Source: Saccharomycopsis phalli
Taxonomy: Eukaryota; Ascomycota; Saccharomycetes; Ascoideales; Saccharomycopsidaceae
DNA length: 64,000 bases
NCBI GenBank assembly: GCA_020342235.1
Contig: CP073214.1
Location: 558,001 to 622,000, forward strand
Direction of reading: 5' to 3'
The translations under genes were made by a program, and so were the position numbers. Position 1 is the first letter of the stretch. Each line of letters opens with the position of its first letter. Positions 31,832 through 62,600 of this stretch are shown piece by piece. The notes under the pieces were generated by a model. The model saw nothing but the letters and a program-made list of their open reading frames with translations, did not search any database and was not told the DNA's origin.

Positions 31832-32390
31832 ATGATGTTATTACATTACTATCTTACGCTTTTAGGAGTAATTCAGGCTGTGAATATTGTGCTAAGAAAC
31901 AAGGACAATGAAATATTTCCTATTGGCGTCCTAAATTATGATCAAGGGTTAGCAACTACAGGGTTTACAGTCGGAGATGTTACCTTATTCAAGCCGGATA
32001 ACTACTGTGTGGGAACTGAGATAGATGGCGAAGTGAACTGCTTTAGTTATCGATATGTGAGTATATTTTTGAGATCTCGGAAGTGATGTCATTTTTTACT
32101 AATGATAGTTAAATTCTCTAAATGGAGTAATATTGGTTCATGTGAAGTCAAATGGAGAGATTATATCCTATTCGTTTAAACCTTCCGAGTTAAGCGGGAT
32201 AACTGCTAAAGTTAGTAAGCCGGTGCTTGGAAGTGTGCCGACTGTGAAGTTCCCGGAAGTCAAGAAACAGCGAGACAGTACAGGGGTGATAGTAGCTGAT
32301 GAAGAAAACAAGTCCTTCTTTCAGAAGTATTGGATGTATATTGTTCCGATTTTGCTTATTTTATCCTTTGGGGGAGGTGGCCAATCATAA
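31832..32390 (+). CDS. EMC10: ER membrane protein complex subunit 10, spliced
   Basis: 168 residues from two exons: 31832-32056 and 32109-32390. The intron is 52 nt, with 5' site GTGAGT, branch point TACTAAT (32097-32103) and TAG ending at 32108. Splicing joins CFSYRY to LNSLNGVILV in phase 0. The product has a signal peptide (MLLHYYLTLLGVIQA), a lumenal beta-rich domain and a C-terminal membrane segment followed by a glycine-rich end (FFQKYWMYIVPILLILSFGGGG), which is the Emc10 hallmark. The EMC inserts and stabilises membrane proteins in the ER. Shorter than S. cerevisiae YDR056C (205 aa). The second exon alone lacks any ATG near its start, supporting splicing. Confidence 0.72.
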
Positions 32391-43661: not shown

Positions 43662-45133
43662 TCAATCTTTTTTCTCAAAATAATCGGTCATCTCTTGATC
43701 CAACTCCTCAAGAGTCTTTTTAGCTTTCTTGACTGGCTTCTTTGGCTTATCCTTCGCCCCTGCACCAGCTTTGGATTTGGCCTTTGACTTGCCCACTGGT
43801 TGTCTGGCCTTTGGCTCGGCACTATTTAGTTAGTATTTAAAGAAAAAAAAATTAGTCCCGCGCAACTTACTTTGGAACGATTCTGGAAGCCAACGGTTTC
43901 TTGGTTGGGTCTAAAATCAACTCAATTCTGAGTCTATTCTTTCCTCCGTCAATTGGAGCTCCATTGTATCTCTCAACCGCTCTAGAGGCAGAAGCAGGTG
44001 TCTTATATACAACAGTAGCAATCCCCTTGGATTGCCCTCTTTCATTATAATTCAAATGAACGGTTTGAACTCCGCCAACTTGCTTGGCAAAAAATTCCTA
44101 GAAATTAATATTTGGACTTGTGTAACTAACGAAATAATGCAACAAAAAAAAATATAGGAGGCACAACCATCAGAAACTAAAAGTCAGTCATGAAACTTTA
44201 AGGTCACTTAAAAGTATTTCCTTTACAGCTTTAAAACTGACAGAAGACTGCAACTAAGAACAAAAAGTTCTATAAAAGAATAGTATACCAATGGTAAATA
44301 AACAACTATTGGTAACTGCAAGGTAGAGCATTTTATCACCAGCCTTTTTTGTTTTCAGAGCTCAATTGACCATATCAATAATATGTCATGGTCTGCGAAA
44401 CCCGTAAACAATTTAAAAATAAGTAACTGAAACTGTAAAAAAGTTACTGGCTTTCAAAGAGAAATGGCCCCCTATAAAACTCATATTTTTATAATATGAT
44501 TTTTTTGCGCGATTTATTTCATTAAATTTGTGTGTTAACATACTTTAATTGTATCTTGTTTGATGTCTTTTGGCTATAACACACGTTAGTAATTTAATGA
44601 TTTAGAAAATATCACATAAATATGTTAATGAAATATCACTTTCAAAATACCTAGAGAGCACAGTTGTGACCAGGGCATTATCGTACTAAATGTACTGTCA
44701 AGGAAAATATTATCAAAAATAGGAGCCCGCTCCACACTTTAGTATTCCATCAAAGAACTTTAGCGACAATTAAAAGAGCATTTAGATAGGGGAACCCAGT
44801 ATCACTCTAGTAAAACATCGTAATCCCACTTAGTCATCTGTGCAAACAGAAATGTCATTAAAACTTTTCCTCACTAGGCATAACATATTCATGTACTTAA
44901 CAAGCACATACCATTCCATAAACCACGGTCTTAGTAGCAAAAGAAGCATCAAGTACTTTTCCTAAAGATACTGGTGCTGGTGCTGAGACTGACTTCTTTG
45001 GTGCCGGACGCGACTTTCCAACTTTGGCGTTTTTGGAGACGACCTTCTTTCCTCCCTTTGGTCCTCCAAATCTCTTTTGGCGTGGCTTTTCAGCGATAAT
45101 ATCGTCAAGTGATTTATCCAATGAAGCAGACAT
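43662..45133 (-). CDS. YRA1: mRNA export adaptor ALY/REF, four exons with a 30 nt microexon
   Basis: 212 residues from four exons: 44912-45133, 44544-44573 (30 nt), 43871-44097 and 43662-43821. Introns are 338 nt (GTATGT; branch TACTAAC 44585-44591), 446 nt (GTATGT) and 49 nt (GTAAGT; TACTAAC). Exon 1 encodes MSASLDKSLDDIIAEK and ends in the first RRM beta strand (TKTVVYGM). The microexon supplies PKDIKQDTIK, and exon 3 continues EFFAKQVGGVQTV and NYNERGQSKG. Exon 4 ends LEELDQEMTDYFEKKD. All three are Yra1 landmarks, in order and in frame. Yra1 joins TREX and Mex67 for mRNA export. In S. cerevisiae a long intron autoregulates YRA1, and the long introns 1 and 2 here suggest the same. Confidence 0.92.
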
Positions 45134-45325
45134 TGTATGGTTGGTATTTGTTTTTGAAAGAAATAATTTGCAAAAAGTGGCGATTGTTTTTCTACTACCA
45201 TGGTTATGAGCCACGCGTGCCCCAATTGGGATCTAGCCAGCCAACTAAATTAGCTTCACACAATAAATTGTAACCTCTATTAAACTAATATACATATGAC
45301 CAGTAAAAACGTAATATACATAAAA

Positions 45326-47401
45326 TCAAACTTCAATCAGAGTCCTCATTAATCCAACAGTTGAATCCAAGTAGTCTTCAAGTACCATTTTAAAGAAAGT
45401 ATTCATATTGTGCTTTAGCATCAATTTTCCCAAATATACCAGGTGAATCTTCAAGAAAAGTTCACAAGCAGTTTGCTTCACTTTGTTGTCCTTGTGATAT
45501 AATCCCATATACAACGATTCCATAGAATAATTACTCCAGCACATGGTCTTTTCATTGAACTTAGAACCAAGTAAGTAACACGCAGTAAGTAAATCATAGA
45601 CTGCATATTCGTTGGAGTTTGCATATTTCAAAAGAAAACTATATGCTTCATATACTTTGGTATTTGATACGATGCCTGGAGAATTTTGTAGGAACACCAA
45701 CTGGCTGAATAGCTCAACATCTAGTTTCAGTTTAAAATGACCACTGAGCGGGTTAGCCGTCTGCTTGAACCAGTAGTCCCTCTGCACTAAGCTATAAGCC
45801 CTTGATTCGTTAGCCGATTTCACCGACCAAAATCCAATCGGCGAACCAAAAATAGGAGACATTGGCCCAGATGAAGAAGCAACCATGGTATTGATTCTAA
45901 GAGTTTTTGCTTTAACAGGCAGTGCCGCATATATAGACTCATGGCTTGTCATGGAGCTGCGCACGCTCATAGAAGTTGTAGTACTGTTCAAACTGTCCAA
46001 CGTGGAAACCTTGCTATCCTTAGAGTACCTGGCAGTAGAAGAGTATCTATTGGCGCCTGATTCTGTGTTAATAATACGTAGAATCTCATTCATGTGATAA
46101 CGGAAAGCGGTCAAGATGGTATACTCATCATGCTTTTGAGACAATATGATATTTAACTGCTTGAGAAAGTTTTCGTCTTCTTGGATTATTGGAACAAAGC
46201 CTGACTCCTGTGTGGGAGAATTCCGGCGCGGGGAACCGCTAAACAAGAACGAGCCAAATCCGCCAGACGTTGGAGAAAATCGATCTTCAGTGGGAGACTT
46301 TGACTCTATAGGAGATAAATGTGAAACAGTAGGAGCGCCATTTGTAGAAAGCACCAACTCATTGAGTTCCATGTCGTAAAGTATATCCCATAGCGAGTCG
46401 TGAATCTTGAACGTAGGGTTGGCAGTGCCTGCGATAAACCAATCCAAATGCTCTATAATTTCGAATTTACTCAAATCCACATACGGTAACGTCCGCTTAA
46501 GAAACCCATTTATAATTCCACCACCAGACACTAAAGATATTGAGGCAAACACAAACTCGCATATATCCTGGGCTGCCATTCGATTTCCCAAAAAGAATAT
46601 TCTTTTATGCGTCAAGAAGGCATTAATTAGAATGACTATCGAGGGTGTGGAACTGCCGTAAATTTCCAATTCCGGATATTTGCCATTGCACTTTACGGTT
46701 GCCGATAAAATCTGGGATAAGAATTTGGTGACGGGAAAATCGCCAACAATTTCACGCGCCTGTAGCAAAGGCACTCTGAGGGGAATTTTAAAATTCAAGT
46801 AATCCACCAAAAACTCGTAGTTATCATTTTTCATACTAGAAACATCCAGCAGCTCCAAGATCTTGCTAGTGAACAGCTTATTATTGAAAAAATCCTTGAC
46901 AGGAAAGTCATTTATACAAGCAAGTAATAGCTTCTTTTCATTGGATAAATGAGGAATAAAAGCACTGGTGTTACTATTAACCAGCTGGAACAACTCCCGT
47001 GCGATTTCCACGGGATTAGAACTGAAGGACTTATCCAAAGCATATAATAGAAGCGGCTTAAAAATATGAAAACTCGGCAAGGTTGTGGCAATAGCTATTC
47101 CCTTGATTATAGTATTTCTGTTGACATTTTCATCATATCTTGTGTTGACCACATTAATAATGTATAATGGATCGTCTGCCTCCTCGTTGTCATGGACATA
47201 ATGGTAAAATCCCTTGGAATCCTTATGGAGAACAATAACAGACCAGTCTTCATCTCTGGAGTCGATTTGATCAGGCAATAATAATTCAGTCAAATAAGGA
47301 ACATGTCCCGGAATAGCACTGGGGTACAGGTGCCTTATGACTGGTCCTAGATTGATATCAAATTCAGAGGCAATCGTATACTGTATAATTCCCTCACTCA
47401 T
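45326..47401 (-). CDS. DENN/uDENN-type trafficking protein (Afi1/Anr2-like)
   Basis: 691 residues. N-terminal IQYTIASEFDINLGPVIRHLYPSAIPG and LTELLLPDQIDSRDEDWSV are the opening longin/uDENN motif of fungal Afi1/Anr2 proteins, continuing with INVVNTRYDENVNRNTIIKGIAI and LPSFHIFKPLLL. A central DENN part (IVILINAFLTHKRIFFLGNR), a Ser/Pro-rich linker (about 375-520) and a helical C-terminus (LLTACYLLGSKFNEKTMCW) follow. Afi1 is the docking partner of the small GTPase Arf3 in polarity; Anr2 is a related protein. Which one this equals is not settled, and a role as GTPase regulator is inferred. Start ATG at 47401. Confidence 0.65.
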   Translation of the reverse strand: MSEGIIQYTIASEFDINLGPVIRHLYPSAIPGHVPYLTELLLPDQIDSRDEDWSVIVLHKDSKGFYHYVHDNEEADDPLYIINVVNTRYDENVNRNTIIKGIAIATTLPSFHIFKPLLLYALDKSFSSNPVEIARELFQLVNSNTSAFIPHLSNEKKLLLACINDFPVKDFFNNKLFTSKILELLDVSSMKNDNYEFLVDYLNFKIPLRVPLLQAREIVGDFPVTKFLSQILSATVKCNGKYPELEIYGSSTPSIVILINAFLTHKRIFFLGNRMAAQDICEFVFASISLVSGGGIINGFLKRTLPYVDLSKFEIIEHLDWFIAGTANPTFKIHDSLWDILYDMELNELVLSTNGAPTVSHLSPIESKSPTEDRFSPTSGGFGSFLFSGSPRRNSPTQESGFVPIIQEDENFLKQLNIILSQKHDEYTILTAFRYHMNEILRIINTESGANRYSSTARYSKDSKVSTLDSLNSTTTSMSVRSSMTSHESIYAALPVKAKTLRINTMVASSSGPMSPIFGSPIGFWSVKSANESRAYSLVQRDYWFKQTANPLSGHFKLKLDVELFSQLVFLQNSPGIVSNTKVYEAYSFLLKYANSNEYAVYDLLTACYLLGSKFNEKTMCWSNYSMESLYMGLYHKDNKVKQTACELFLKIHLVYLGKLMLKHNMNTFFKMVLEDYLDSTVGLMRTLIEV

Positions 47402-48230
47402 TTAATATATACTTATCCTGAATTGAAGAAACAAATAACCAAATAATGGATAGGATGTCTTGGAACCCGCAAGATAGCCGTCTTCAAAACCTCAACACGC
47501 TCGGGCACTAGGCAGACAAGTAAATAAGCCAATTATAAATATTGGCCAGATAAATATAATCAAACAGGAGCGTTAAAATTCTTGGTCGATCGGGGGTGTT
47601 TTGCTAGATCGGTTTGATATAAAAATCCTTAAGATGACAAGATCGGACTAGACAATTCACTCGCTAGAGAATCACTGCAAGTAGGGCAAGTTATGTAGAT
47701 CCCCTTAGTGGTTGAGTATTGTGGTTTACTGCTTTAACAATAAAACGCCACCCCCCAAGAAAATATTATGTAGAGGAGGAATTTCAATGTCTGTATCAAT
47801 TTTTATTGTGTATCACTTTGTGATTTAAGTAGGTGTACATGTAGTATGGTGACCTTTGTTCTATAGTAAGAAAAACTTTTTTGGGGTATTCAAAATGAGA
47901 CACGCAGTGGCGACTTACCGCATTAGGCCTAGTTACTATTTCTGTAGTGCATTCCGAGGAATCAAAAAGACATCAATTAAGTGATGGGTAATTGGTGATT
48001 AATTGTATATACAGACAAATTGTTATCCTCAAAAACCGCATGGCGGCACTTTTTTGACATTTCACGCACGTGTACTGGTTGCTACTAAGCAGTGTTGGAA
48101 ATACACTTCAACTCATGTTCCAGTGCAAATTTAATAAATACCACTAGGCCATACCTAAGTGCCACTAGGCCATCTTTCATCACTCGCCGGGCGTTTTTCA
48201 ATGCCTCAAGTCACCTAAAATTGCACATGT
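47402..48230. other. 829 bp intergenic region
   Basis: Promoter of the DENN gene and 3' region of the kinetochore-type gene, both minus strand. Contains CACGTG at about 48068 and a near-tandem CCACTAGGCCAT pair (about 48142 and 48162). No gene seen. Confidence 0.5.
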
Positions 48231-49094
48231 CTAATCAGTGCTAAGCTTAGGGACAATTGTACTCAAGTTGGCTCTAAGCTTGGCGATTTCGTCAAGTAAC
48301 TGGGTGTGTGATGATATCACATTTCGTTGAATCAGGCCAACTGACTGAGTGGAGTTTACCAATTGAAGCCTTATGCTCTCGTTTAGCTTTTTGTAATATT
48401 GTAATTTCTGCAATGTTTTGACGTAGGATGCTCGCTTATCGTTAAGGGATTTCTTTATTGCCAAGTACTTCCTGAGAGCCAGCTTTATTTCACTCTGTTC
48501 AATACTCTCAATTTCAATTAACGAATCGTCAGATTCAAAGCCAGCGTCTTCCTGTTCTAACAATTTTTTTTCATCCTTGTCTAGTTGTTTCACTGTTAAA
48601 TATTTTACAGAAGGTAGCTGTTGCACGTACGACAAAACCCGAAGTATATCATCGGACTTTAAATTAATCCCTCCGACAACAGGCACTATTATCTGTGATG
48701 CCTTTTGGATGTTGTGGAAACTAGTCAACTTGACCATTTTCTCCTGGTTGATGATCTGCTCGGTAACTTGGTCTATAGCCTGACGCGAGAACATTTTCCT
48801 GTAATGACGCTTGAAAATCATATTTACTGGACGGTTAGACAATTGAATAATAGCCAATAACTACTTACTTTGGGTTGTGAATTTCTTCAACTTTTGTGTG
48901 ATCACTTGTACCTCTTCTGGGGTATACTGGTGGTCCAGAAGAATCAATTCCATCAATTCCGCTGTTAGTTTAAGAGGCTGCAGAATATCCTGAATCTGTT
49001 TATACAAAAATACGTGAACATAAGAATATGATTCATTTTTCCGCCTTGATAACTTTGCTGAGCTCATCTCTAGTTGCATTTGTTTATCACCCAT
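48231..49094 (-). CDS. FTA4/NKP1-like inner kinetochore subunit, spliced
   Basis: 273 residues from exons 48869-49094 and 48231-48826. The intron is 42 nt: GTAAGT, branch TCTAACC (48833-48839), CAG ending at 48827. Splicing in phase 1 joins KLKKFTTQ to INMIFKRHYRKMFSRQAIDQ. The order FLYKQIQDILQPLKL, then HYRKMFSRQAIDQVTEQI, then LQKLQYYKKLNESIR and LLDEIAKLRANLSTIVPKL follows the Sim4-complex Fta4 / S. cerevisiae Nkp1 pattern of coiled-coil CCAN proteins. These help assemble the centromere-proximal COMA network. Predicted coiled coils fill most of the protein. Similarity is at profile level, so the name is provisional. The splice is well supported, because exon 1 otherwise stops at once. Confidence 0.6.
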
Positions 49095-49907
49095 GCCTAC
49101 CTTGTTAGTGATATGTTACCCGCACGTCAGAGCCACTAGCCGAGGCGACGGGTATAACGGGGCGGATAAAAAGTCATACCTCAAAATAAAATAGGAGGAA
49201 ATATTACGTCGGTTCGGCGTATTGCGTTTAATTATAAACGCCTACTAATGACTTATAGAGGGGTGGAACATACAGTCTAAAGGAAATGAAAGTGGGGACG
49301 GGCTGAGTGACTAGGAATTTCTGATAATTTTACAAAGAGAAATATATTCCAAACAACTAAATACATTGGTTATTCTGAATGATTGTTTGTCTGCTTGATG
49401 CAATTTTATCTGCGATACCAGTCGATGAAATTGAGGTTGACTTTTATTCCGCCTATGCATTGCCGGGATTAACCGAAACTAGCCGCAGCACTACACCGCC
49501 AAGGGGTAAGTTACTGGGGCGCGTCACACATCAGTATTAATTAAAACTGAGGAGTAGTTATTTACTGTAGCCAACTTTACCCTATTGGGCTTTTTAGTTT
49601 TCCTTTGATTTCCCGCGGCAACGGCCGTCATTCGGTATTAGAGGCATTGTGTGTGTAATTATTTAAGCCACCTCCGTAGTTAGTTTGTAATTTTAGTCTG
49701 TCGATCCAAGCCTTTCAAACACACTCAAACAATAAGTTTTATTGTGGTTTTTGCACCTTGCCAATTAGCCATCATGCATGATCTATTTGTTCCGAGCATT
49801 GCCAGAAAGCCTGGCATTACCGAGATGCACACCAGAAATTTACTATAAATACTCGAGTGAATCAATCGTATTGAATAACATTACAAATACTAAATTATTA
49901 ATCAACA
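49095..49907. promoter_or_regulatory. 813 bp ARO10 promoter region
   Basis: Long upstream region of ARO10. Besides the CCG array (49463-49485) it has several further CCG/CGG triplets (49138-49215 and 49610-49640), a CTATAAATA box at about 49844 and a pyrimidine/A-rich stretch before the ATG. No other gene seen. Confidence 0.6.
49463..49485. promoter_or_regulatory. Aro80-type binding array CCG-N7-CCG-N7-CCG
   Basis: CCG at 49463-49465, 49473-49475 and 49483-49485, each separated by exactly 7 bp. Aro80 binds tandem CCG triplets spaced 7 bp upstream of ARO9/ARO10 in S. cerevisiae. The array lies about 420 bp upstream of the ARO10 ATG. The spacing is seen directly; binding is inferred. Confidence 0.7.
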
Positions 49908-51677
49908 ATGGCTCCAGTTCCTGTATCCAGTTGTGAAAGCGACGAAAGCGTGCCAACCTTAAACCTGCTCTCGATCAGCAAAATTCCGTTTGGAGAATAC
50001 GTCTTCCGAAGAATTCGTCAGTTGGGAACCAAGAGTATATTTGGTGTCCCTGGTGACTTCAACTTGAAATTATTGGACCATATTAGTCCGGTTGAGGATA
50101 TGAGATGGATCGGTACCTGCAATGAGTTGAATGCTGCTTATGCTGCTGACGGATACGCCCGGTTTGCAAAAGTTCCTGGTGTTGTTATTACAACGTTTGG
50201 TGTCGGTGAGTTGAGTGCTATCAATGGTGTTTCCGGAGCATTTGCCGAATATGTGCCATTACTCCACATTGTTGGTACTTCACCAACCACCAAGAAAATC
50301 CAACCAGGGCAAGTCCATCACTTGGTTCCTACCCGAGACCCATATGATGTTATTCCAGACCACAGAGTTTACGAGAAGCTAGTGGATGGCGTTTGTGTTG
50401 CCAAAGAGTCTGTAGATGACGTTGTCGAAGGTATGGTGCAAGTAGACCGACTTTTGGAGAAGATTGTGAAGAGCGCTAGACCAGGGTACTTGTTTTTGCC
50501 ATTGGATTTGCAAAGTAAGCTTGTTAACCCTAGTCAATTGGAAGTTCCTTTGAATCTCAAATCTGCCGATCAAAAGCCAGAATTGACAAAGAGCATTGCG
50601 GAAAATATCTTGGATAGACTTTACGCTGCTGCCAACCCAATTATCATTGGCGACATTTTGACAGACAGATTCCAGGCAAGTTGCAAGTTGAAGGAGTTTG
50701 TCGACCGTACCAAGATCAACAACTACTCTACGCCAATGGGTAAGAGTGCTTTGGATGAAAGCAACGAAAGTTACATTGCTGACTACAATGGAAGATTGTC
50801 CAACCCAGGTGTACAAGACGAAGTCGAGTCTTCTGACTGTGTATTGCATTTTGGGACGTATCTTGCTGAGACTAATACTGGTCAATACAGTACGCACTTT
50901 GACCCAGACAATCTCATTTTGTTGACACCATTTTACATCAAGATTGGACAGAAGTTGTTTAGGGATGTCAATTTCAACGATGTTTTGACGCAGATGTTAG
51001 AGTTACTTGATGTCAACAGGGTTCCAACTCCAGTCCGACCTGAGGGCATCAATACGCTTATTGAGAGAAAGTCACCGGCTGATATTTCTCAGTCGTACTT
51101 GGCAGAAGAAACCCAGAAATATATACAAGAGAACGATGTGGTGATCTGCGAGACATGTTCTTTCCAATTTGCCTTTGGTGACATTAGATTACCAAAGAAT
51201 TCCACCTTTATCTCCCAGTCCTTCTACTTGTCTATTGGCTATACTTTGCCTGCTACGTTGGGTGTTGGTCTTGCTATGCAAGATACAAACCATGACGGCC
51301 GCTTGATTCTCTTTGAGGGAGACGGGTCTGCGCAGATGACGGTACAGGAGTTTGCAACTTACATGAGACACGGAATCAAGCCTACTATAATATTGCTCAA
51401 CAACAACGGGTACACCGTTGAGAGAATCATCCACGGTGCTGAGGAAGTCTACAACGACATCCAGCCAAACTGGGACTGGTGCAGTATCTTCAAGACCTTT
51501 GGGGATACCCAAGGCAAGACGTTTTCGAAGCGCATCAGCACCAGAAAGGAATTGAGCGAGACTTTCCAGGACTCTGCGTTGGCGAAGCAAGAAAGAATCC
51601 AGTTGTACGAGGTGATTCTTGATAAGTTGGATGTGCCATGGAGATTTGATGAAATGTGCAATGAGAATGGTTTTTAA
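49908..51677 (+). CDS. ARO10: Phenylpyruvate (2-oxo acid) decarboxylase
   Basis: 589 residues, ThDP-dependent decarboxylase of the Ehrlich pathway (aromatic and branched 2-oxo acids to fusel aldehydes). N-terminal MAPV and IPFGEYVFRRI with TKSIFGVPGDFNL follow Aro10 rather than Pdc1. Catalytic residues visible: Glu73 (GTCNELNAAYAADGYAR), His137-His138 (GQVHHLVP), the ThDP motif GDG at 471-473 with NNN at 498-500, and Glu505 (NNNGYTVE). Length agrees with Aro10 (635 aa, versus about 563 for Pdc). The upstream CCG array and a nearby ARO80-like gene support the identity. It is convergent with a small mitochondrial gene (103 bp). Confidence 0.9.
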   Translation: MAPVPVSSCESDESVPTLNLLSISKIPFGEYVFRRIRQLGTKSIFGVPGDFNLKLLDHISPVEDMRWIGTCNELNAAYAADGYARFAKVPGVVITTFGVGELSAINGVSGAFAEYVPLLHIVGTSPTTKKIQPGQVHHLVPTRDPYDVIPDHRVYEKLVDGVCVAKESVDDVVEGMVQVDRLLEKIVKSARPGYLFLPLDLQSKLVNPSQLEVPLNLKSADQKPELTKSIAENILDRLYAAANPIIIGDILTDRFQASCKLKEFVDRTKINNYSTPMGKSALDESNESYIADYNGRLSNPGVQDEVESSDCVLHFGTYLAETNTGQYSTHFDPDNLILLTPFYIKIGQKLFRDVNFNDVLTQMLELLDVNRVPTPVRPEGINTLIERKSPADISQSYLAEETQKYIQENDVVICETCSFQFAFGDIRLPKNSTFISQSFYLSIGYTLPATLGVGLAMQDTNHDGRLILFEGDGSAQMTVQEFATYMRHGIKPTIILLNNNGYTVERIIHGAEEVYNDIQPNWDWCSIFKTFGDTQGKTFSKRISTRKELSETFQDSALAKQERIQLYEVILDKLDVPWRFDEMCNENGF

Positions 51678-51780
51678 ATAGTTTGTGATTATATCTGCAT
51701 TAAAAATACACTGTAACACTATTTCGCTATATACACGGCACTGGGGGTTTTGTTCGTATAAGAAACACCCACTTGTATTC

Positions 51781-52163
51781 TCAGGAGAACTTGTCTCCCG
51801 ACTTTCTTGTCTGTTTGTTAGTGTGTTGTTGTCGACTGTGGTGCTACTTACTGCATAAGCACTTCCTCCGCCTTCGTACTCGCTCTTCCGCTGAACAGTG
51901 TTAATTTCCTCTGGAAAGCCCGGCCGAATCTTCGACGTGTCCACATCCAGATCACTCGACTCCATATGGTTAGGTCGGTGTCTGTCATTCTTCCCCTTGT
52001 TGACGTACATCTTCACCACCAAGAGAGTGCTCAACCCAAACGCCGTGATTTTGAGAATTTTAACAAAGGTATCAGGCAAGGCCGCAAATCCGACCAAGTG
52101 TCGCGGCTTGGTTGCATACTGCCGGTTATAGCTTGCGTATCTAAAGAGTCCTCTGTTGAACAT
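51781..52163 (-). CDS. Small mitochondrial membrane protein, spliced
   Basis: 113 residues from exons 51852-52163 and 51781-51810. The intron is 41 nt: GTAAGT, branch CACTAAC, CAG ending at 51811, phase 0. The N-terminus is Arg/Tyr-rich and lacks acidic residues (MFNRGLFRYASYNRQYATK), like a mitochondrial presequence. One membrane segment (FVKILKITAFGLSTLLVVKMYV) is followed by a soluble tail ending SAYATRKSGDKFS. Without splicing the frame runs on as a 324-codon stretch deep into the antisense strand of ARO10, which is an artefact. I do not recognise the family with certainty. From size, location and a split structure, Coi1 (YDR381C-A) is one candidate. Confidence 0.65.
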
Positions 52164-52479
52164 GGCGTGCCGAAATGTGAGCAGAGCCCGGGATAATGCA
52201 TTTTTTTTTTTGGAGAGTCAATGCGATGTCTGGAAGCTGGCTTGTTGCCAATTGGGTGTGACAACACCACCTATAATAAAGCCGCGCAGAGGACGACGTC
52301 TAATATAACGGTTTTAGGAGCGCTGATTCTACTTGGGGAAAGGATTTAAAACACTGTGCTCAAGATGTTTGGCATGTCTAGTTTTGGGGATGGGGAAGCG
52401 ATTGCATGCGGGTGAACTCAAACACGCGATATAAATTCGTCTGGCCAGTTGCGGATACTTGTTCAACCCAATTTGCACA
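52164..52479. promoter_or_regulatory. 316 bp divergent region, mitochondrial protein / PMP47
   Basis: Between two divergent starts. A poly-T run at about 52202-52211 and GATATAAAT at about 52428 near the carrier gene. No fatty-acid-responsive element was convincingly identified. Confidence 0.4.
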
Positions 52480-53424
52480 ATGTCAAACGAGTCTGCTGAC
52501 AGAATTGTCCATGCTATTAGCGGGGGTCTTGGAGGAGCTGCTGCCTTGATTGTAACATATCCGTTGGTGGCTATCTCGTGCCGGCAGCAAACCGAGACGA
52601 AATCCAAGGCCGGGAAGGAGGAAAAGAAGCCAACAGTGCAGTTGATAACTGAGATGTTGAAGCAGGAAGGGATTGGCAGCTTCTATGCGGGCATGGAGTC
52701 GGCGATATATGGCATGACCCTCACCAATTTCATCTACTACTACTTCTACGAATCCACGGGGAGAATTGCCGTGAAGAACCGTAACATCAAGAGCTTGGCG
52801 GACTTCTCGGTGTCCGGGTTGAAGGACGTTGCCTTGACCAACTTGAGTCCGTTGGAGAGTATTGCCACAGGTGCGGTTGCCGGATCTGTCACTGCGGTGG
52901 TTACCAACCCATTCTGGGTGGTCAACACCAGAACCACCATCAACAAAAGCAAGGCCAGCTTCTTGGCAAATTTGATCGACTTGTACAAGCAGGACGGCCT
53001 CAAGTCGCTTTTCAGAGGGGTGTTGCCTGCATTGGTGTTGGTTGTCAACCCGATCATCCAGTACACGGTGTTTGAGCAATTGAAGAATGTGATTTTGCGG
53101 ACCCGCAAGGGCGGATTCAAGCCGATCCACGCGTTCCTCATTGGTGCGCTCAGCAAGCTCATTGCTACCAGTGTGTCGTACCCATACATCACCATCAAGT
53201 CGAGAATGCACTTGCAAACAAAAGCCGGAGCCAGTACGTCCATGTCGCAGTTTTTGGTGAAGATCTTGAAGGAAGAGGGCGTGGCCGGGTTGTACAATGG
53301 GATTTACGTCAAGTTGTCACAGAGCATCTTTACTGCGGCGTTCCTCTTTTATTTCAAGGAGGCCTTGGTCGGATTAACCGTGAAGTTGATTTCCTTGCTC
53401 AGATTGAGAAAGCGTGCGTTTTAG
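52480..53424 (+). CDS. PMP47: Peroxisomal mitochondrial-carrier-family protein (PMP47/ANT1 type)
   Basis: 314 residues from the ATG at 52480. Three MCF repeats: PLVAISCRQQ (degenerate first signature), NPFWVVNTR and YPYITIKSR, each followed by the matching acidic/glycine motif (LYNGIYVKL in the third). Sequence order and the short N-terminus fit Candida boidinii PMP47 and the Ant1 group, which exchange ATP for AMP (or CoA-type substrates) across the peroxisomal membrane for fatty-acid activation. Seven codons upstream stay open but lack an ATG. It lies 111 bp upstream of MDM35. Confidence 0.82.
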   Translation: MSNESADRIVHAISGGLGGAAALIVTYPLVAISCRQQTETKSKAGKEEKKPTVQLITEMLKQEGIGSFYAGMESAIYGMTLTNFIYYYFYESTGRIAVKNRNIKSLADFSVSGLKDVALTNLSPLESIATGAVAGSVTAVVTNPFWVVNTRTTINKSKASFLANLIDLYKQDGLKSLFRGVLPALVLVVNPIIQYTVFEQLKNVILRTRKGGFKPIHAFLIGALSKLIATSVSYPYITIKSRMHLQTKAGASTSMSQFLVKILKEEGVAGLYNGIYVKLSQSIFTAAFLFYFKEALVGLTVKLISLLRLRKRAF

Positions 53425-53535
53425 TTCTATATAGTGTTTGTATGGCAATGTATACTGGGGGTCCCCCGGTGCTTACCGTCTTGTTGGTATATGGTGGCGA
53501 GTGTCGAATCTCACATTATAGATTGTTGTTGCTCA

Positions 53536-53913
53536 ATGGGCAATATTATGTCAACCAGCTTTGCTCCAGAATGTACCGAAGCCAAGAAGAAATACGACGA
53601 GTGCTTCAATGTCTGGTACACAGAGAGTACGTACAAACCCTATTGCTCATTGCTAACGTTTAGAATTTCTTGCCGGGAAAAGCGTAAGTCAATGTGCCCG
53701 TGGAACCGCTAACAATTAGGTTGAAAACGAGTGTGTGGATATCTGGAACCAGTACAAGGCCTGTGTGGATGTATGTATGTAGGTTGTGTGGATGTTACTA
53801 ATGTCTAGGCGGCTCTTTTGAAGAAAGGTATGAAGCCGATGTTGGATGAGGCCCGGAAGCATGCTACTTTTGAGTCTGGGGGAATTCCCCAGGACCAAGA
53901 TTCCAAGAAGTAA
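53536..53913 (+). CDS. MDM35: Intermembrane-space twin-CX9C protein, four exons with a 20 nt microexon
   Basis: 88 residues from exons 53536-53626, 53664-53683 (20 nt), 53720-53770 and 53809-53913. Introns are 37, 36 and 38 nt with 5' sites GTACGT, GTAAGT, GTATGT; branches TGCTAAC, CGCTAAC, TACTAAT; each ends TAG. The spliced product reads MGNIMSTSFAPECTEAKKKY, DECFNVWYTE, KFLAGKS, VENECVDIWNQYKACVD, AALLKKGMKPMLDEAR, matching Mdm35 (MGNIMSASFAPECT; EKFLKGKSVENEC) block by block, including both CX9C motifs. Mdm35 chaperones Ups1/Ups2 for phosphatidic acid and phosphatidylserine transfer between mitochondrial membranes. 86 aa in S. cerevisiae, where I know of no intron. No single open frame covers the gene. 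Confidence 0.93.
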
Positions 53914-54109
53914 TATTATGGATTGTGAGTATTGTGAATTAATATTATGGATTGTAAATATTGTGGATTGTAAATATTGTGGATTGTAATATTGTGGATT
54001 GTAATTTTATGGATTGTGAGTATTGTGAATTAATATTGTGGATTGTAAATATTATGGATTGTGAATATTGTGAATTAATATTGTGGATTGTAATATTATG
54101 AATCGCAAA
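53914..54109. repeat. Minisatellite of 13 units (13-16 bp) after MDM35
   Basis: Begins directly at the MDM35 stop codon. Thirteen units in 196 bp follow the pattern TATTRTGGATTGTRAR (16 bp), with 15 bp and shorter 13 bp (TATTGTGAATTAA) variants. The 16-then-13 pairing recurs three times (53914, 54007 minus 2, 54050), which suggests higher-order duplication. It occupies the 3' UTR zone between convergent MDM35 and MME1. G/T on one strand is strongly biased. Confidence 0.9.
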
Positions 54110-54234
54110 TATAAATGGTAAATATGAATCGTATAATATCTCCTTCCATTGGTCATTTAACCTACTATATACATCTGTTGTAGTAATGCCTGGCCGTGAA
54201 ATAGCCAACTAGGTCCTGAAAATGCATACACCCA

Positions 54235-55158
54235 CTATATACTCTTGAGAACCTCCTGATACACCAAAAACATAAGACTGCTCTGGACACCAACCCAAAC
54301 AACTCTAGGGACAACACCACTAAACAACACACCCAACCCTTCCTTGTTGTATATTCCAAGTAACCCACCAAGCACCGAGCTCAGAAGCCGTCCACTGCTG
54401 CTGGTTTGAAGTCTCGTCTTGATCACGTCCAAAGGAGTAGTGAGAAAACCAGTCAACCCTCCAGATACCGCCCCAGTCACCAACTCCAGGTACACACTAA
54501 GCTCATTGCTCCGCGTGTCTTCCAAAATCAACGCCCATTTCCGAAACTTTTCATAGAATGCAAACTGCATCGCAGAGTACGGCAAGTCTCTAAACAACGT
54601 CGCCTTGTATCCTGAATAAAGCGCACCCCACCCTTCGGTCTTGATAATACGGGAAAATGAATCAATCGTGCCCTTGTAATTGTAGCCCGACTTGAAGTAC
54701 GGGTTGTTGTACCGGCCTTGCAACTGTAACCTCGCCTTGACCACTTCAGACGGCACGACAAACACACTAGTGGCAAGATCGCCCATGAATCCAGCAAATA
54801 AATGCGTCACGGTGTCATTGACATGGAAATCGTCAATGAGCTTTCGCTTAATCGTCTCATAAACACTGAAAAACACTAAACCCCGCGGAACTGCCGCCAC
54901 GATGGCTGCTCCATATCCTGCATATAGTCCTCGGACCACGCCCTCTTGCCTGAAGATTATTTTATAGGCACCAATGGTATCTTGATATTTAATGGCATGA
55001 GGCGCTGCCTGCTGCCTTGTCTTTATTGTGTCCAAAGAATGCATCGCCGTATCACTCAATAGATTGGCGACCAATCCACCCGCCATATTATGCCAAAGAG
55101 GCGGGTGTCTGGAGTCCAATTTATTTCCACCAGTGACCAGCTGTATATCATCCATCAT
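54235..55158 (-). CDS. MME1: Mitochondrial carrier, Mme1 (YMR166C) type
   Basis: 307 residues, three carrier repeats: HSLDTIKTRQQ, VPSEVVKARLQLQGRYNNPYF and TPLDVIKTRLQT, with matching LYAGYGAAIVAAVPRG, YSGYKATLFRDLPYSAMQFAFYE and FSGVVPRVVWVGVQSS. LWHNMAGG, HSLDTIKTRQQAAP, RFNNP-type LQLQGRYNNPYFKSGYNYKG and DLPYSAMQFAFYEKFR align with S. cerevisiae Mme1, reported as a mitochondrial magnesium exporter. Tandem ATGs at the start (55158). It is shorter than Mme1 (368 aa), mostly at the N-terminus and the last loop. Confidence 0.82.
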   Translation of the reverse strand: MMDDIQLVTGGNKLDSRHPPLWHNMAGGLVANLLSDTAMHSLDTIKTRQQAAPHAIKYQDTIGAYKIIFRQEGVVRGLYAGYGAAIVAAVPRGLVFFSVYETIKRKLIDDFHVNDTVTHLFAGFMGDLATSVFVVPSEVVKARLQLQGRYNNPYFKSGYNYKGTIDSFSRIIKTEGWGALYSGYKATLFRDLPYSAMQFAFYEKFRKWALILEDTRSNELSVYLELVTGAVSGGLTGFLTTPLDVIKTRLQTSSSGRLLSSVLGGLLGIYNKEGLGVLFSGVVPRVVWVGVQSSLMFLVYQEVLKSI

Positions 55159-55553
55159 TTATTCACGAGTGTGGTATTTTTTTTCGTCTGTAGCTGTGTC
55201 AATCGCGCGCTCTGTTGCTATATCATTAATTCGAGGTATGAGTAATTCGCAAAAACTTGTTTCGAGTCAAGTATCACCGTCTATGAAAACACCCCACAAA
55301 ATATCAAGAAATTGCCCTTTGATGACTCAATACAAGGTCAGAATCTAATCAAACTGTTCTTTTTGAAATAAAAGAAAAAAAATATCAGTCATATACTCTA
55401 GCCAAACCTACCAATGGTTGCAGATCCCTCATATTCACTAATGCGCACCTACATTGCAAGGCACTCAGAAAAAAAAAACAACTTACATAACAATCCAACA
55501 AGGCCATGCCCATATATTCTACAATTGCCGTTAATTAGTCAATTAAACATTAC
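55159..55553. other. 395 bp intergenic region between RPS15 and MME1
   Basis: MME1 promoter and RPS15 terminator, both on the minus strand. Poly-A runs at about 55374-55382 and 55470-55478. No gene seen. Confidence 0.5.
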
Positions 55554-56184
55554 TTATCTGAGCGACATGAACTTGCTCATGGCACCCAAACCTGGTCTAC
55601 CGTGTCTAACAGGAGTGTAAGAGAGAGAAAACTCACCCAAGTAGTGGCCAACCATCTCTGGCTTGATCTCAACGTTGTTGAAGACCTTTCCAGAGTAAAC
55701 TCCGACAACGGATCCAATCATCTCTGGAACAACAATCATATTTCTTAAGTGGGTCTTGACAACAGCTGGCTTCTCGTCAGCTGGAGCAGCCAACTTAGCG
55801 GCTCTCAATTTCTTGATCAAACCCATTGGCTTGGAGTCCAAACCTCTTCCGAATCTTCTTCTAACTCTGGCGTGGGTCAACTTGGCAAACTCCTCAGTTG
55901 GCAATTCCAATAATTGTTCCAATGGAACACCTCTGTAGGAGAAGGTCTTGAAGGTTCTCTTTCTTCTTTCTAATAAACGTTAGTAACTGACTTTTAATAT
56001 TTTTTTACAAGAATAAATGATTCAAGCACCGTCTCTGGTACTCAATCTTTATGACCGCGTTCTGCATTTCCAAGTGCAGCCTTGCGAAGCATTAATTCAT
56101 TTTTGAATTCATTATTATCTCTTTTCCATATATTCTTCATTTATTCTTTGGATTATAGTTTCACGTACCAGTAGTACTAGACAT
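55554..56184 (-). CDS. RPS15: 40S ribosomal protein uS19, spliced
   Basis: 143 residues from exon 1 56169-56184 (16 nt) and exon 2 55554-55969. The intron is 199 nt: 5' site GTACGT, branch TACTAAC (55979-55985), 3' site TAG ending at 55970, phase 1. The product starts [19 protein letters not shown] and continues [34 protein letters not shown] and [20 protein letters not shown], typical uS19. S. cerevisiae RPS15 (142 aa) has no intron. Codon use is optimised. It shares a 282 bp divergent promoter with RPP2. Confidence 0.95.
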
Positions 56185-56466
56185 TGTGATTTGCTTAACT
56201 GAAATGTATCTACAATTTTTGTCTTTCAAACGGAACTAATTTTTTCAACGGTTAGGAGCGCATCACATGGGTTCCTTACCCTTGAAAAACCCCAGTGATA
56301 GGCAGTCACGAATACACGTGCACAGACACAGGGCACAACAAAGCATCGATCCTCACCAGTGAAAAAAATTTCGATCTTGATTACCTGATAGTTTATACTA
56401 CAAAGGATAGTCTGCGATAAAGCTTAAAAGTGATTATTCTAAAGAAAGTAATTTATATATAACAAA
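56185..56466. promoter_or_regulatory. 282 bp divergent ribosomal-protein promoter (RPS15/RPP2)
   Basis: CACGTG at 56315-56320 lies near the middle, a Cbf1-type site as expected for Candida-clade ribosomal-protein promoters. TATATAA just before the RPP2 ATG (about 56455). A strict Tbf1 TTAGGG is not seen. Confidence 0.5.
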
Positions 56467-56805
56467 ATGAGATATTTGGCTGCCTATCTTTTATTGGTTG
56501 AAGGTGAGAACACCTCTCCAACCGTCGCTGACCTCAAGAGTGTCATCGAGTCTGTCGGTGTTGAATTCGATTCTGCTAGAGCCGAGAAATTGTTGAAGTC
56601 TTTTGAGGGAAAGTCTGTCAGCGAATTGATTGCTGAGGGTTCCCAAAAATTCGGCTCCTTGCCATCTGGTGGATCCAGCGCCGGTGCTGCTTCTGGTGCT
56701 GCTGGTGCCGCTGCTGGTGGTGCTGATGCTGAAGCCGCTGAGGAGGCTGCTGAGGAAGAAGCTGAGGAATCTGACGATGACATGGGTTTCGGTTTGTTTG
56801 ACTAA
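56467..56805 (+). CDS. RPP2: 60S acidic ribosomal stalk protein P2
   Basis: 112 residues. N-terminal dimerisation helices [18 protein letters not shown] and [17 protein letters not shown] mark P2 rather than P1. Then an Ala/Gly hinge, an acidic stretch and the universal stalk C-terminus [11 protein letters not shown], which recruits elongation-factor GTPases. Which of the two fungal P2 forms (RPP2A or RPP2B) it is cannot be said. Optimised codons and no CTG. Confidence 0.93.
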
Positions 56806-56880
56806 GCTTAGTGCGTCATTTAACTTTATAACAAAAGGTTTTGTAGTGTATAATATTACGTTATAAAATTGCAGCTGTAG

Positions 56881-57546
56881 TCATTCGTAGTACCCAGAGC
56901 ATCTTGTTTCCTTGTGGACTCGAAGACACTTGACCCCGCAATACCTGGTGCCGCATCGTACACATTTATTTGGAGAGTTGCTTCCACATATGGAGCACAA
57001 TTTCTTTCCAGGGAGAGAGTGCGTGTTATCCAACTTGGGGTATATCTTACCATCTTTTACTATTTTGGCGTGAGCAATGTCGTCATCCATGTAATTGTTG
57101 ATTGTCTTTCGCGAAGCTAAGATCTTCTTTGTGGCAGGTGTTTGGCCCTGCTTGACTCTCCTGCTACTGTTTTTGTTCTTATTAATATTCCCCGAGTAGT
57201 TGATCAAGTCGAAAATCGGGTAGTCATCGCTGTTGAAGTTCTTAAAGTCCACATTAAGTCCGGATCTGGGAAGGTCTAGTTTGGTATTTTGCTCGTTGTA
57301 ATTCTCCCGATCAATTTCCTGGAATCTCTTTATAGACTTTCTCACCTCAAGCAAATTCGCATTGATTGAAGAATCGTGCGCGTTTGCCTCCAACTGATTC
57401 AAGTTGTATGCCCCGGTAGCCATCCGCTTTCTACTATGGTCAGTATTCGAACTGCTATAGCCGATCTTTGATGCCTTCAAATTTATTGACGACGAAAAAT
57501 AAACATTCGGGTCCGCGCCCTTTGGAATTTCCTCAACGAAGCTCAT
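56881..57546 (-). CDS. VPS71: zf-HIT protein, probable SWR1-complex subunit Vps71/Swc6
   Basis: 221 residues from the ATG at 57546. The C-terminal HIT zinc finger is complete: CSICGSNSPNKCVRCGTRYC, then GVKCLRVHKETRC. The N-terminal 170 residues are polar, with FQEIDRENYNEQNTKLDLPR. A C-terminal zf-HIT on a protein of this length is the Vps71/ZNHIT1 layout (280 aa in S. cerevisiae), a subunit needed for H2A.Z exchange. Hit1 and Bcd1 carry the finger at the N-terminus, which argues against them. About 28 codons upstream remain open but lack an ATG. Divergent from ARH1 (101 bp). Confidence 0.75.
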   Translation of the reverse strand: MSFVEEIPKGADPNVYFSSSINLKASKIGYSSSNTDHSRKRMATGAYNLNQLEANAHDSSINANLLEVRKSIKRFQEIDRENYNEQNTKLDLPRSGLNVDFKNFNSDDYPIFDLINYSGNINKNKNSSRRVKQGQTPATKKILASRKTINNYMDDDIAHAKIVKDGKIYPKLDNTHSLPGKKLCSICGSNSPNKCVRCGTRYCGVKCLRVHKETRCSGYYE

Positions 57547-57647
57547 GCTGGTTTCAACGTGTGTAAAGTAACCTTGTATGCATTGCCGATTTTCAGAAGA
57601 TCCAATTTGGCGGATCCTTTGTTTCTTCACCTTGAGGTATAAGCGGG

Positions 57648-59177
57648 ATGATTTCAGTTGTACGGCCGCTAGCTGCTCACTGGAGACCGCGTTTTAATGC
57701 TAGGATATTTCGAAACTTTTATGGTACGCTGCCGAATTCACCGATTCAAGTTGCAGTAGTCGGGTCTGGTCCCTCTGCCTTTTATACCATCTTGCACCTA
57801 CTTCAAAAACACCCTCTGGACGTCAAATTTAATATAGACATCTTTGAAAAGAACCCGGTCCCATTTGGCTTGTCGAGGTATGGGGTTGCGCCAGATCATC
57901 CTGAGGTCAAAAATTGTGAGGAAAAGTTCTCGGAAATACTAGAGAATACTGGTAGTTTCAACCAACACGGCGAGACAAACAGTAGGGTGAATTTCTTTGG
58001 GAATATAGAAGTCGGGAAAGACTTGAGCTTGGCTGACATTAAAGCCAATTATAATATTGTTTTGTTTGCCTATGGCTGCTCGGGTGAAAATGGGATTAAC
58101 ATTCCAGGTGCAGATTCCCATGGAGTGATCTCGTCTCGAAAGTTTGTTGGATGGTACAATGGCGCCAGCGAATTGCAGGACTTAAATCCACCTTTGGATA
58201 AAGTTGAGGACGTGATTATTATTGGCAATGGTAATGTGGCTTTGGATATTGCCAGAGTGTTGTTGGCTCCAGTTGAGACATGGCTGAATACCGACATTTC
58301 AAAAGTGGCCTTGGAGACACTAAAGAAGAGCAAAGTCAAGCGAGTACGCATAGTGGGCCGAAGAGGGTTTTTGCAGAGCGCGTTTACTAATAAAGAATTG
58401 CGTGAACTACTTGAATTGGAGTCGCTGGGGGTGGGATTCGCCATTGACGAAGACGTACTTGCGCCGGCAAGATTGGTCGGTTCAAATCTTAGTAGACAGA
58501 ACCAAAGAAGGCTAAAAATGGTGAATAAATATATCCAGAATAACAGTGGGAAAACGTTTGAAAAATGCTGCACTTTGGATTACTTGAAGTCGCCCGTGGA
58601 AGTGTTTCCCGACAGATTCGACCCTGACTTGCTCTCGTCCACAAAACTCCAACTAAACAAGTTGGAAGTTCTGTCATTAGTCAATGCAGAATCTGACCTG
58701 AAGGCTGTCTCCAGCCACAAGTTTGTTTCTTTAAAGAGCGAGCTTCTAATCACCAGTATTGGCTACAAGGGCAAGGCTCTCAATTGTATGAAAGACATGC
58801 ACATTGAATTTGATTCTAAAAGAGGAATCATTCCCAACATCCACAGCAGAGTTTTAGACTCGGGCCGCAATATCATTCCTGGAGTATACGTCACTGGTTG
58901 GATCAAACATGGCCCAAAGGGAGTTATTGCAACCACCATGATGGATTCGTTTGGCACTGCTGCAGAAATACTACAAGATGTCAAGTCTGAAACTGAAACA
59001 CGGCCAGGACTCAAGGGCCTACAGAGTATTCTAGGCAAACTCAATTACACTACTTGGCAAGATTGGCAGAAAATAGACCAGCATGAAAGAAAAGTGGGCA
59101 GCTTGGCTGGCAAGGCCAGAGAAAAGATTGTCGATAACAAGGAAATGTTACAAGTAGCAAAAGGAATAACCACATAA
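57648..59177 (+). CDS. ARH1: Mitochondrial NADPH-adrenodoxin (ferredoxin) reductase
   Basis: 509 residues. An Arg-rich mitochondrial presequence (RPLAAHWRPRFNARIFRNFY), FAD motif VAVVGSGPSAFYTILHLLQ, the family signature NPVPFGLSRYGVAPDHPEVK, NADPH motif IIGNGNVALDIARVLL, and GVYVTGWIKHGPKGVIATTM near the C-terminus. Arh1 passes electrons from NADPH to Yah1 ferredoxin for iron-sulfur cluster and heme A synthesis, and is essential in S. cerevisiae (493 aa). Start ATG at 57648. Confidence 0.95.
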   Translation: MISVVRPLAAHWRPRFNARIFRNFYGTLPNSPIQVAVVGSGPSAFYTILHLLQKHPLDVKFNIDIFEKNPVPFGLSRYGVAPDHPEVKNCEEKFSEILENTGSFNQHGETNSRVNFFGNIEVGKDLSLADIKANYNIVLFAYGCSGENGINIPGADSHGVISSRKFVGWYNGASELQDLNPPLDKVEDVIIIGNGNVALDIARVLLAPVETWLNTDISKVALETLKKSKVKRVRIVGRRGFLQSAFTNKELRELLELESLGVGFAIDEDVLAPARLVGSNLSRQNQRRLKMVNKYIQNNSGKTFEKCCTLDYLKSPVEVFPDRFDPDLLSSTKLQLNKLEVLSLVNAESDLKAVSSHKFVSLKSELLITSIGYKGKALNCMKDMHIEFDSKRGIIPNIHSRVLDSGRNIIPGVYVTGWIKHGPKGVIATTMMDSFGTAAEILQDVKSETETRPGLKGLQSILGKLNYTTWQDWQKIDQHERKVGSLAGKAREKIVDNKEMLQVAKGITT

Positions 59178-59675
59178 ACTGTATATACATTCTGGATAGC
59201 CTCAATGCACGTCCTTTATTTCTTTTTGCGAGAACATTTCGTATTTTCTAAACCCGGTTCGTAAAAGGTGTTCGATCGTGGCAAAGTCTCGCTTCGGGAG
59301 CTTTTGGTATTTTCCAAACTCAGACCTATTAATTAGCATGCGATAACCTAATCGTCATAAATACATACCTAACGAACCTCCGGAAATTCTCTTGGTTCGC
59401 CTAATGTTAATACTACTCGTGCAGACATACAATCGACTTACCACTGGCTTTGTGTATATACAACGAACACACCGTCTGTAAAAATGAATCACTAAAGTTA
59501 AATCAATTACCCTCGGCCAAAGACTTACCCTCCTTCTGTAGGCCCGATAGCTTGGTCATGGTGATTGGAAGCTTGGTTGCACGCCAAACTCGGAGGAGTC
59601 CATGTGACATGAGGCCGGGTGATTTGTTCTCATCTAAAATTTATTATACTGATACCATACATACTCGCTGAATAA
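59178..59675. other. 498 bp intergenic region, PRP8 promoter
   Basis: ARH1 terminator and PRP8 upstream region. One short plus-strand ORF (59450-59671, no ATG) is unconvincing. No tRNA recognised. Confidence 0.5.
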
Positions 59676-62600
59676 ATGAGTGGGCTTCCTCCACCTCCTC
59701 CAGGGATTGATGATTCTGAATCGGATTTGCCCCATCCTCCGCCTCCAGGGATAAATGGCTTTGATTTGCCTCCGCCACCACCACCTGGTTTTGACTTACC
59801 ACCACCACCCGGTTTGGAAGTTCCACCACCACCACCACCATCGGAATTTGCACCACCAAATGAGCCTTTGGGCAACGAGGAACTAAAAATAAGGAAAAGG
59901 AAATGGCTTCAGTTGCAAAAACAGCGATATTCGCGTGACTTTAAGCCGTCAAAGAAGTCTGGATACATTCATGCTAGCCATACTGAGATGCCGCCGGAGC
60001 ATTTAAGAAAAATCATTACAGATCACGGTGATATGTCGTCGAAAAAATTCCAGTCAGACAAGAGATCCTTTCTCGGCAGTTTGAAGTACATGCCACATGC
60101 AATTCTTAAATTGATGGAGAACATGCCGCAGCCCTGGGAGCAAGTCAAAGAAGTCAAAGTTTTGTACCATATAACGGGAGCAGTCACGTTTGTAAACGAG
60201 ATTCCACGCGTCATCGAGGCGGTTTATATAGCTCAGTGGGCCAGTGTTTGGTTAATGATGAGAAGAGAGAAGCGCGATAGAAAGCATTTCAAGAGAATGC
60301 GATTCCCCCCATTTGACGACGAGGAACCGCCACTAAACTATGGAGAAAATATTCTTGACTTGGAGCCTTTGGAGGCTATACAGTTGGAGTTGGATGCGAT
60401 TGAGGACAAGAATATCTACGAGTGGTTGTACGATGAGCGGCCGCTAGTCGACGAGATGGGCGAGTCTTATCGAAAATGGAACTTGAATTTGAAGCAGATT
60501 GCTGACTTGTTTCGCTTATCGACGCCATTGCTTCCGGAGATTACCGACCCAAACTATTTCTACTTGTTTGAGAAAAAGGCGTTCTTCACTGCCAAGGCCC
60601 TCAACGCTGCAATCCCCGGTGGACCAAAATTTGAGCCGTTATACAAGGATATTGACCCGGAACTTGAAGATTTCGATGAGTTTAATTCCATTGATAGAAT
60701 AATATTCAGAATACCTATACGCACAGAGTACCGTATTGCGTTGCCATTTCTCTATAACTCGTCTACAAGAATGGTAGGCATAAGTTGGTATCATAACCCG
60801 TTTTTGGCGTATGTCAAACGAGATAACCCAGAAGTTCCTGTGCTCCATTTTGATTCTTCCTATGCCCCTATATCTTTGAGAGAGTTTGACGAGGATGATG
60901 GGAATTTTGAGGACACAAATTTTGATGAGTCTGGTGCCGATTTGGATGACTTCAAGATATCGGTAAAACCATTTTTGCAAGATACAGATCTTCCAGATAA
61001 TGAAGATCTCAGAAACGGTATTGATTTGTGGTGGGCACCACACCCATTTAATCATAGATCAGGAAGAACTGTTAGAGCACAAGACGTTGCCTTGGTGAAG
61101 GGGTGGTATAAGGAACATCTGCCAAAGGAATATCCGGTAAAAGTTAAGGTGTCATATCAGAAATTGTTGAAAATAGATGTGTTGAATGAGTTGCATCCAA
61201 AGAACCCTAAGTCATCGAGAAACCAAAAGAAAATCAAATTGCTCAAGTCATTGAAGAATACACGGTTTTTTCAAGAGACCACCATCGACTGGGTGGAAGC
61301 TGGATTGCAGGTTGTCAGACAGGGTCATAACATGTTAAATTTATTGATACACAGAAAGGGGCTTACTTATTTGCACTTGGATTACAACTTCAACTTGAAA
61401 CCTACCAAAACATTGACAACAAAAGAGAGAAAACGGTCGCGATTTGGGAATGCATTTCATTTGATTCGGGAGATTCTCAAGATTGTCAAATTACTAGTGG
61501 ATACGCATGTGCAGTACAGATTGGGAAATGTAGACGCTTATCAATTGGCAGACGGAATATATTACGTATTGAATCATTTGGGTCAATTGACGGGAATCTA
61601 TCGTCACAAATACAAGGTCATGCATCAGATTAGAGCTTGCAAGGACTTGAAGCATGTGGTTTATTACAAGTTTAACAAGATAATCGGAAAAGGACCAGGC
61701 TGTGGTTTTTGGCAGCCTGCCTGGAGAGTGTGGCTATTTTTTCTTCGGGGAATTATTCCTCTACTTGAACGTTGGTTGGGGAATTTGTTGGCCAGACAGT
61801 TTGAAGGAAGACATTCCAAGGAAAATGCCAAAACAATTACAAAACAAAGGGTCGATTCCTACTATGACTTGGAGTTGCGTGACTCTGTGATGCATGATAT
61901 ATTGGATATGATTCCTGACGGTATCAAGCAGAATAAAGCCAATACAATTTTACAGCATTTAAGCGAAGCCTGGAGATGCTGGAAGGCTAATATTCCTTGG
62001 AAAGTTCCAGGACTCCCAGAACCCGTGGAAAAGATCATTGAGCGTTATATTAAGGCAAAGGCAGATGGCTGGATCTCTGTTGCTTATTACAACAGAGAGA
62101 GAATAAAGGATGGCTCGCATGTGGAAAAGACTGTGGTCAAAAAGAATTTGGGCCGACTCACCCGGTTATGGTTGAAGAATGAACAGCAGAGACAAGCTAA
62201 TTTCCAGAAAGATGGGCCTTATGTCACTACTGATGAGGCTGTTGGGATCTATTCGACCATGGTAAATTGGTTAGAAAGCAGAAGCTTTCAACCGATCAGT
62301 TTCCCTCCATTAAGTTACAAACATGACACTAAGTTATTAATTTTGGCATTGGACAGCTTGAAGGAAGTATATCAAGCTCAAGGTAAATTGAACTCTTCGC
62401 AGAAGGAGGAACTCACTCTTATAGAGCAGGCATACGACAATCCACATGAAACATTGAGTCGTATAAAGAAGTTTATCCTTACCCAGCGAGTGTTTAAAGA
62501 AGTGCAAATAGAAATGATGGACCATTACGACTACATCAATCCTACTTATGAGACGGATCCTTTGGAAAAAATCACTGATGCCTATTTAGACCAATACTTA

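Follow-up and report, generated by a model that had tools for sequence, protein, structure and literature searches.

The MDM35 gene at positions 53536–53913 of the window (the whole stretch of 64,000 nucleotides of Saccharomycopsis phalli DNA that was analysed) is, almost certainly, a normal and intact gene carrying three compact introns of the U2 type, a class of introns that it shares with neighbouring genes. Mdm35 resides in the mitochondrial intermembrane space, where it is the twin-CX9C partner of the Ups-type lipid transfer proteins. The gene model was rebuilt from the raw sequence, and all exon and intron coordinates were identical, to the base, to those of the first-pass annotation, which had divided the gene into four exons of 91, 20, 51 and 105 nt separated by three introns of 36–38 nt. 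As a gene model read from the DNA the observation is confirmed, and the interpretation that accompanied it is only partly supported.

In the model, which lies on the plus strand, exon 1 (53536–53626, 91 nt) is followed by intron 1 (53627–53663, 37 nt, phase 1), which begins with GTACGT and ends with TGCTAAC GTTTAG. Exon 2 is a microexon of 20 nt (53664–53683), and is separated from exon 3 (53720–53770, 51 nt) by intron 2 (53684–53719, 36 nt, phase 0), bounded by GTAAGT and CGCTAAC AATTAG. Intron 3 (53771–53808, 38 nt, phase 0) begins with GTATGT and ends with TACTAAT GTCTAG, and exon 4 (53809–53913) contributes the last 105 nt, including the stop codon. The spliced product has 88 residues and aligns with S. 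cerevisiae Mdm35 (PDB 4xhr_N) over residues 1–84 with an E-value of 4.7e-35, free of gaps, as had been claimed for it. It also matches the Pfam family PF05254 (Mdm35 / TRIAP1) at 1.3e-27, with 96.2 bits against a cut-off of 27, and its translation contains the two CX9C pairs (C13/C23 and C42/C52) with all four cysteines intact. None of the three plus-strand frames preserves the protein when the gene is left unspliced; the first of them follows Mdm35 as far as residue 30 and terminates inside intron 2. There are no CTG codons in MDM35, and this reading is therefore independent of the meaning of CTG in the host.

All three introns read as U2-type GT-AG introns, each with a GT donor consensus, a CTAAY branch site and an AG acceptor. 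The donors are those reported before, and so are the CTAAC or CTAAT branch sites; the distance of 5–8 nt assigned between branch site and TAG was loosely stated, given that exactly four bases lie between CTAAY and AG in every one of the three. This places five bases between the presumed branch A and the AG, and 29–31 nt between donor and branch site, and in each case the first AG past the branch site is the acceptor. Donor-like hexamers are also found within intron 3, at 53775 and 53779, and would give introns of 34 or 30 nt, both of which change the frame.

The predicted consequences of incorrect splicing were borne out. Skipping of the microexon shifts the frame, so that the codon formed at the junction is followed at once by a stop, and retention of intron 1, 2 or 3 singly leads to an early stop, which in the 36-nt intron 2 comes from its own TAG, in frame, as anticipated. 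Transcripts that carry these early stops, through a failure of splicing or a skipped exon, would be expected to enter nonsense-mediated decay. The stop that follows skipping could also lower protein output, and together with the two donor-like sites that intron 3 has in tandem (53771 and 53775) it lends something to the idea that the microexon is alternatively spliced, as a switch on the level or the isoform of Mdm35. We regard such a switch as very unlikely, since the 20 nt are not frame-keeping and microexons are usually multiples of three in the account available from PMC11121469, and since stops on retention are general among the introns of Y. lipolytica, where the accessible text of PMC2911113 gives them for up to 93% of introns.

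Slightly less credible still is that the locus represents an unexpressed relic, with another copy doing the work. A second copy elsewhere in the genome is conceivable, only the window being examined here; nevertheless, an intact spliced frame with four CX9C cysteines, a gap-free match to Mdm35 and consensus-like signals in three of three introns speak against a relic.

The splice signals were compared with chance expectation by scanning both strands of the window for a compact-intron motif (GTRNGT, YTAAY, 1–4 nt, YAG, with a total length of 30–60 nt). The scan returned 11 distinct acceptors, against a mean of 3.29 (SD 2.0, maximum 10) in 100 dinucleotide-preserving shuffles, an excess that is somewhat flattering because the pattern was composed after the introns had been seen. 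Single motif hits prove little, given this post hoc pattern and a top shuffle of 10 against the 11 observed. Clusters of at least three acceptors per strand within 250 nt occurred twice in the real sequence, in MDM35 and in an SDH6-like gene, and in none of the 100 shuffles. A narrower CTAAY pattern, which was run without shuffles, missed two introns of the SDH6-like gene. The motif is modest evidence, and for the MDM35 claim it is the protein match across the junctions that is decisive.

That this structure is special to MDM35 is not supported, as introns of 36–53 nt are present in at least five, and probably seven, genes of the window. Twelve such introns were placed in seven genes, MDM35 included (median 41.5 nt), among which the 5′-terminal pair in a ubiquitin protease-like (UBP) gene and one other are less certain. 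The spacing from YTAAY to AG in the twelve ranges from 3 to 6 bases, and is four in half of them (6/12). The spliced products of six of the seven genes, all but the UBP-like one, were scanned against Pfam; five were matched, and the match spans at least one junction in four (MDM35, SDH6-like, FTA4 and YRA1).

The closest parallel is located about 5.3 kb from MDM35, on the minus strand, in a LYR-family gene that we take to be SDH6 (59202–59559, start at 59559). It has four exons on the same plan, obtained by joining reading frames across the motif hits, with introns at 59528–59492 (37 nt), 59441–59401 (41 nt) and 59368–59326 (43 nt) and, between the last two, a microexon of 32 nt (59400–59369) that is frameshifting if skipped. 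Its product matches Complex1_LYR (1.5e-11) over residues 9–65, across all three junctions. The kinetochore gene FTA4, also on the minus strand, has an intron of 42 nt (48827–48868), and its spliced product scores 54.0 bits in Pfam, where the downstream ORF by itself reaches 45.4 bits.

For the compact introns of the COI1-like, EMC10 and UBP genes, a domain match across the junction is absent. A small mitochondrial-looking protein that starts at 52163 on the minus strand, which presumably resembles S. cerevisiae YDR381C-A / COI1, gave no match in Pfam, and removal of a 41-nt intron (51811–51851) gives it a short charged C-terminus. EMC10 has an intron of 52 nt on the plus strand (32057–32108), and its spliced product matches the Pfam family ECM10 (6.7e-14) entirely downstream of the junction. 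The two UBP introns (within 40009–40183, minus strand) are probable, their N-terminal exons being without homology support; they measure 53 nt (40183–40131) and 44 nt (40052–40009), and the longer one uses an AAG acceptor, outside the scanned motif.

Longer introns coexist with these, as in RPS15 (199 nt; Pfam S19), in a gene that we assume to be RPL19 (240 nt, 28987–29228) and in YRA1 (338 and 446 nt). The RPL19 intron divides the start codon, with AT before the donor and G after the acceptor. Since compact introns recur in neighbouring genes, the class is a property of the host genome, and the MDM35 introns look like the short end of it, that is, of the normal intron style of this genome rather than a peculiarity of MDM35. 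The near-equal length of three introns within one short gene might suggest recent copies of a single mobile intron (introner), an origin that we reject as highly improbable because the intron cores show no kinship, with a best score of 17 in 66 pairs (12 introns) versus a maximum of 22 in 200 shuffled pairs.

Under the explanation that we favour, three ordinary compact introns in an intact gene, each MDM35 intron would be recognised whole, by intron definition, through its donor, a CTAAY about 30 nt downstream and an AG five nt past the branch adenosine. The 20-nt microexon would then be the remainder between two independently removed introns, with exon definition unnecessary. The earlier argument that this exon is too short for exon definition is probably inapplicable, as in the available portion of PMC8624252 intron definition is said to prevail where introns are small and exons larger. 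The microexon should probably not be measured by exon definition, supposing that intron definition extends to a microexon between mini-introns; if it does, exon size is no obstacle and the worry falls away.

The microexon of YRA1 is perhaps more interesting than that of MDM35. This gene (43662–45133, minus strand) has exons at 45133–44912, 44573–44544, 44097–43871 and 43821–43662. The introns between them measure 338, 446 and 49 nt, and the microexon of 30 nt (44573–44544) keeps the frame and sits between the two long introns. The RRM_1 domain scores 47.7 bits with the microexon and 33.2 bits without it; skipping would cost the RRM ten residues. The last exon has a match in 5sup_G, a YRA1 chain from S. 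cerevisiae (E 4.9e-5). In S. cerevisiae, YRA1 has a single large intron, which is used for autoregulation. Both the SDH6-like and the YRA1 microexons lie within 10 kb of MDM35. A frame-keeping length, as expected for a regulated microexon, is found for the 30 nt of YRA1 and is lacking in the 20 nt of MDM35 and the 32 nt of the SDH6-like gene. YRA1 is the better candidate for regulation, because its microexon is frame-keeping, lies inside the RNA-binding domain and is placed between two long introns.

A broader reading may be offered as speculation, and taken as a whole we consider it rather unlikely. This lineage would keep two intron classes: a compact one near the lower limit of the spliceosome, in places with several introns per small mitochondrial gene and microexons between them, and a long one, seen in YRA1 and in genes for ribosomal proteins; in addition, the YRA1 microexon would be a switch that tunes mRNA export by removing ten residues of the RNA-binding domain. 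In the compact class, the distance from the donor to the branch adenosine is 29–46 nt, and from the branch adenosine to the AG 4–7 nt.

Regarding the genetic code, CTG is scarce in the window, with 70 occurrences in 27 reading frames (13,916 codons). PRP8 (59676–64000, running past the window end) has a single CTG in 1441 codons, at position 482, where Cys or Pro stands opposite in the three PDB chains shown; this alignment may allow a CTG-Ser code. The hints from PDB alignments are mixed, for Ile stands opposite the CTG at position 532 of UBP, and Asn, Glu, Ile and Lys opposite the four CTG positions of NSE4. A test of the composition flanking CTG (Leu, Ser or Ala) hardly separated even the known Leu and Ser codons from each other. 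Neither Rfam, at gathering scores, nor ARAGORN, with the bacterial code, returned a hit in the window. The YRA1, YDR381C-A-like, PDC/ARO10-like, ARH1, P2 stalk and SDH6-like genes (45133–59559) are clustered, presumably as on S. cerevisiae chromosome IV, several of these names being likewise our assumption. MDM35 itself is flanked by two mitochondrial carrier genes on opposite strands (52480–53424 and 54235–55158), and a tandem repeat whose unit is near 45 or 91 nt long (53910–54100) abuts its stop codon and precedes the convergent carrier gene.

The main practical consequence concerns annotation. A pipeline with an intron minimum of about 49–50 nt that admits no exons of 20 nt easily misses or misreads such genes, and might fragment or drop MDM35, the SDH6-like gene and YRA1. 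If the MDM35 introns are spliced as modelled, the minimal spacing usable by a budding-yeast spliceosome can be no larger than theirs; they give no pointer to a new mechanism. A literature search on MDM35 introns, Saccharomycotina microexons and mini-introns, with most subscription journals outside its reach, returned among the matches listed no title on an MDM35 structure of this kind.

Compared with its counterpart in S. cerevisiae, the MDM35 described here is alike in protein sequence, in its near-equal length and in the twin-CX9C pattern. The S. cerevisiae gene is not known to have introns, in contrast to the three found here. The introns are, as had been pointed out, below the S. cerevisiae minimum, at 36–38 nt against the 49 nt adopted in the available text of PMC4202332. 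Y. lipolytica and other ascomycete yeasts share with MDM35 a strong donor, a CTAAY-type branch site near the AG and stops on retention, as far as PMC2911113 and PMC2483917 were accessible. On the other hand, Y. lipolytica has a minimum intron of 41 nt, with a peak at 41–60 nt (accessible text of PMC2911113), and a preferred branch-to-AG distance of 2 nt (accessible part of PMC2483917), while the MDM35 introns measure 36–38 nt with a distance of 4. The same part of PMC2483917 gives 3 nt for C. guilliermondii and 4–5 nt for C. lusitaniae; the latter resembles MDM35 in this respect, although its ten sampled introns are longer, with a median of 98 nt.

S. pombe also has short introns, with a median of 56 nt in the table of PMC2483917, and is the only fungus in which microexons, little studied in fungi, have been tested experimentally, according to the portion of PMC11121469 at hand. 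It differs in that the branch point lies on average 13 nt from the 3′ splice site (available text of PMC8624252), against about 5 nt to the AG in MDM35. Encephalitozoon cuniculi presents mini-introns with a median of 32 nt and a clear branch motif in the accessible table of PMC2483917. It is a reduced parasite that lives inside cells, and that study counted 13 introns in it, whereas here a yeast has mini-introns beside long ones. Lengths of 36–38 nt are short for a budding yeast and within the eukaryotic range, and the MDM35 structure is ordinary for its host genome and mildly notable among budding yeasts.
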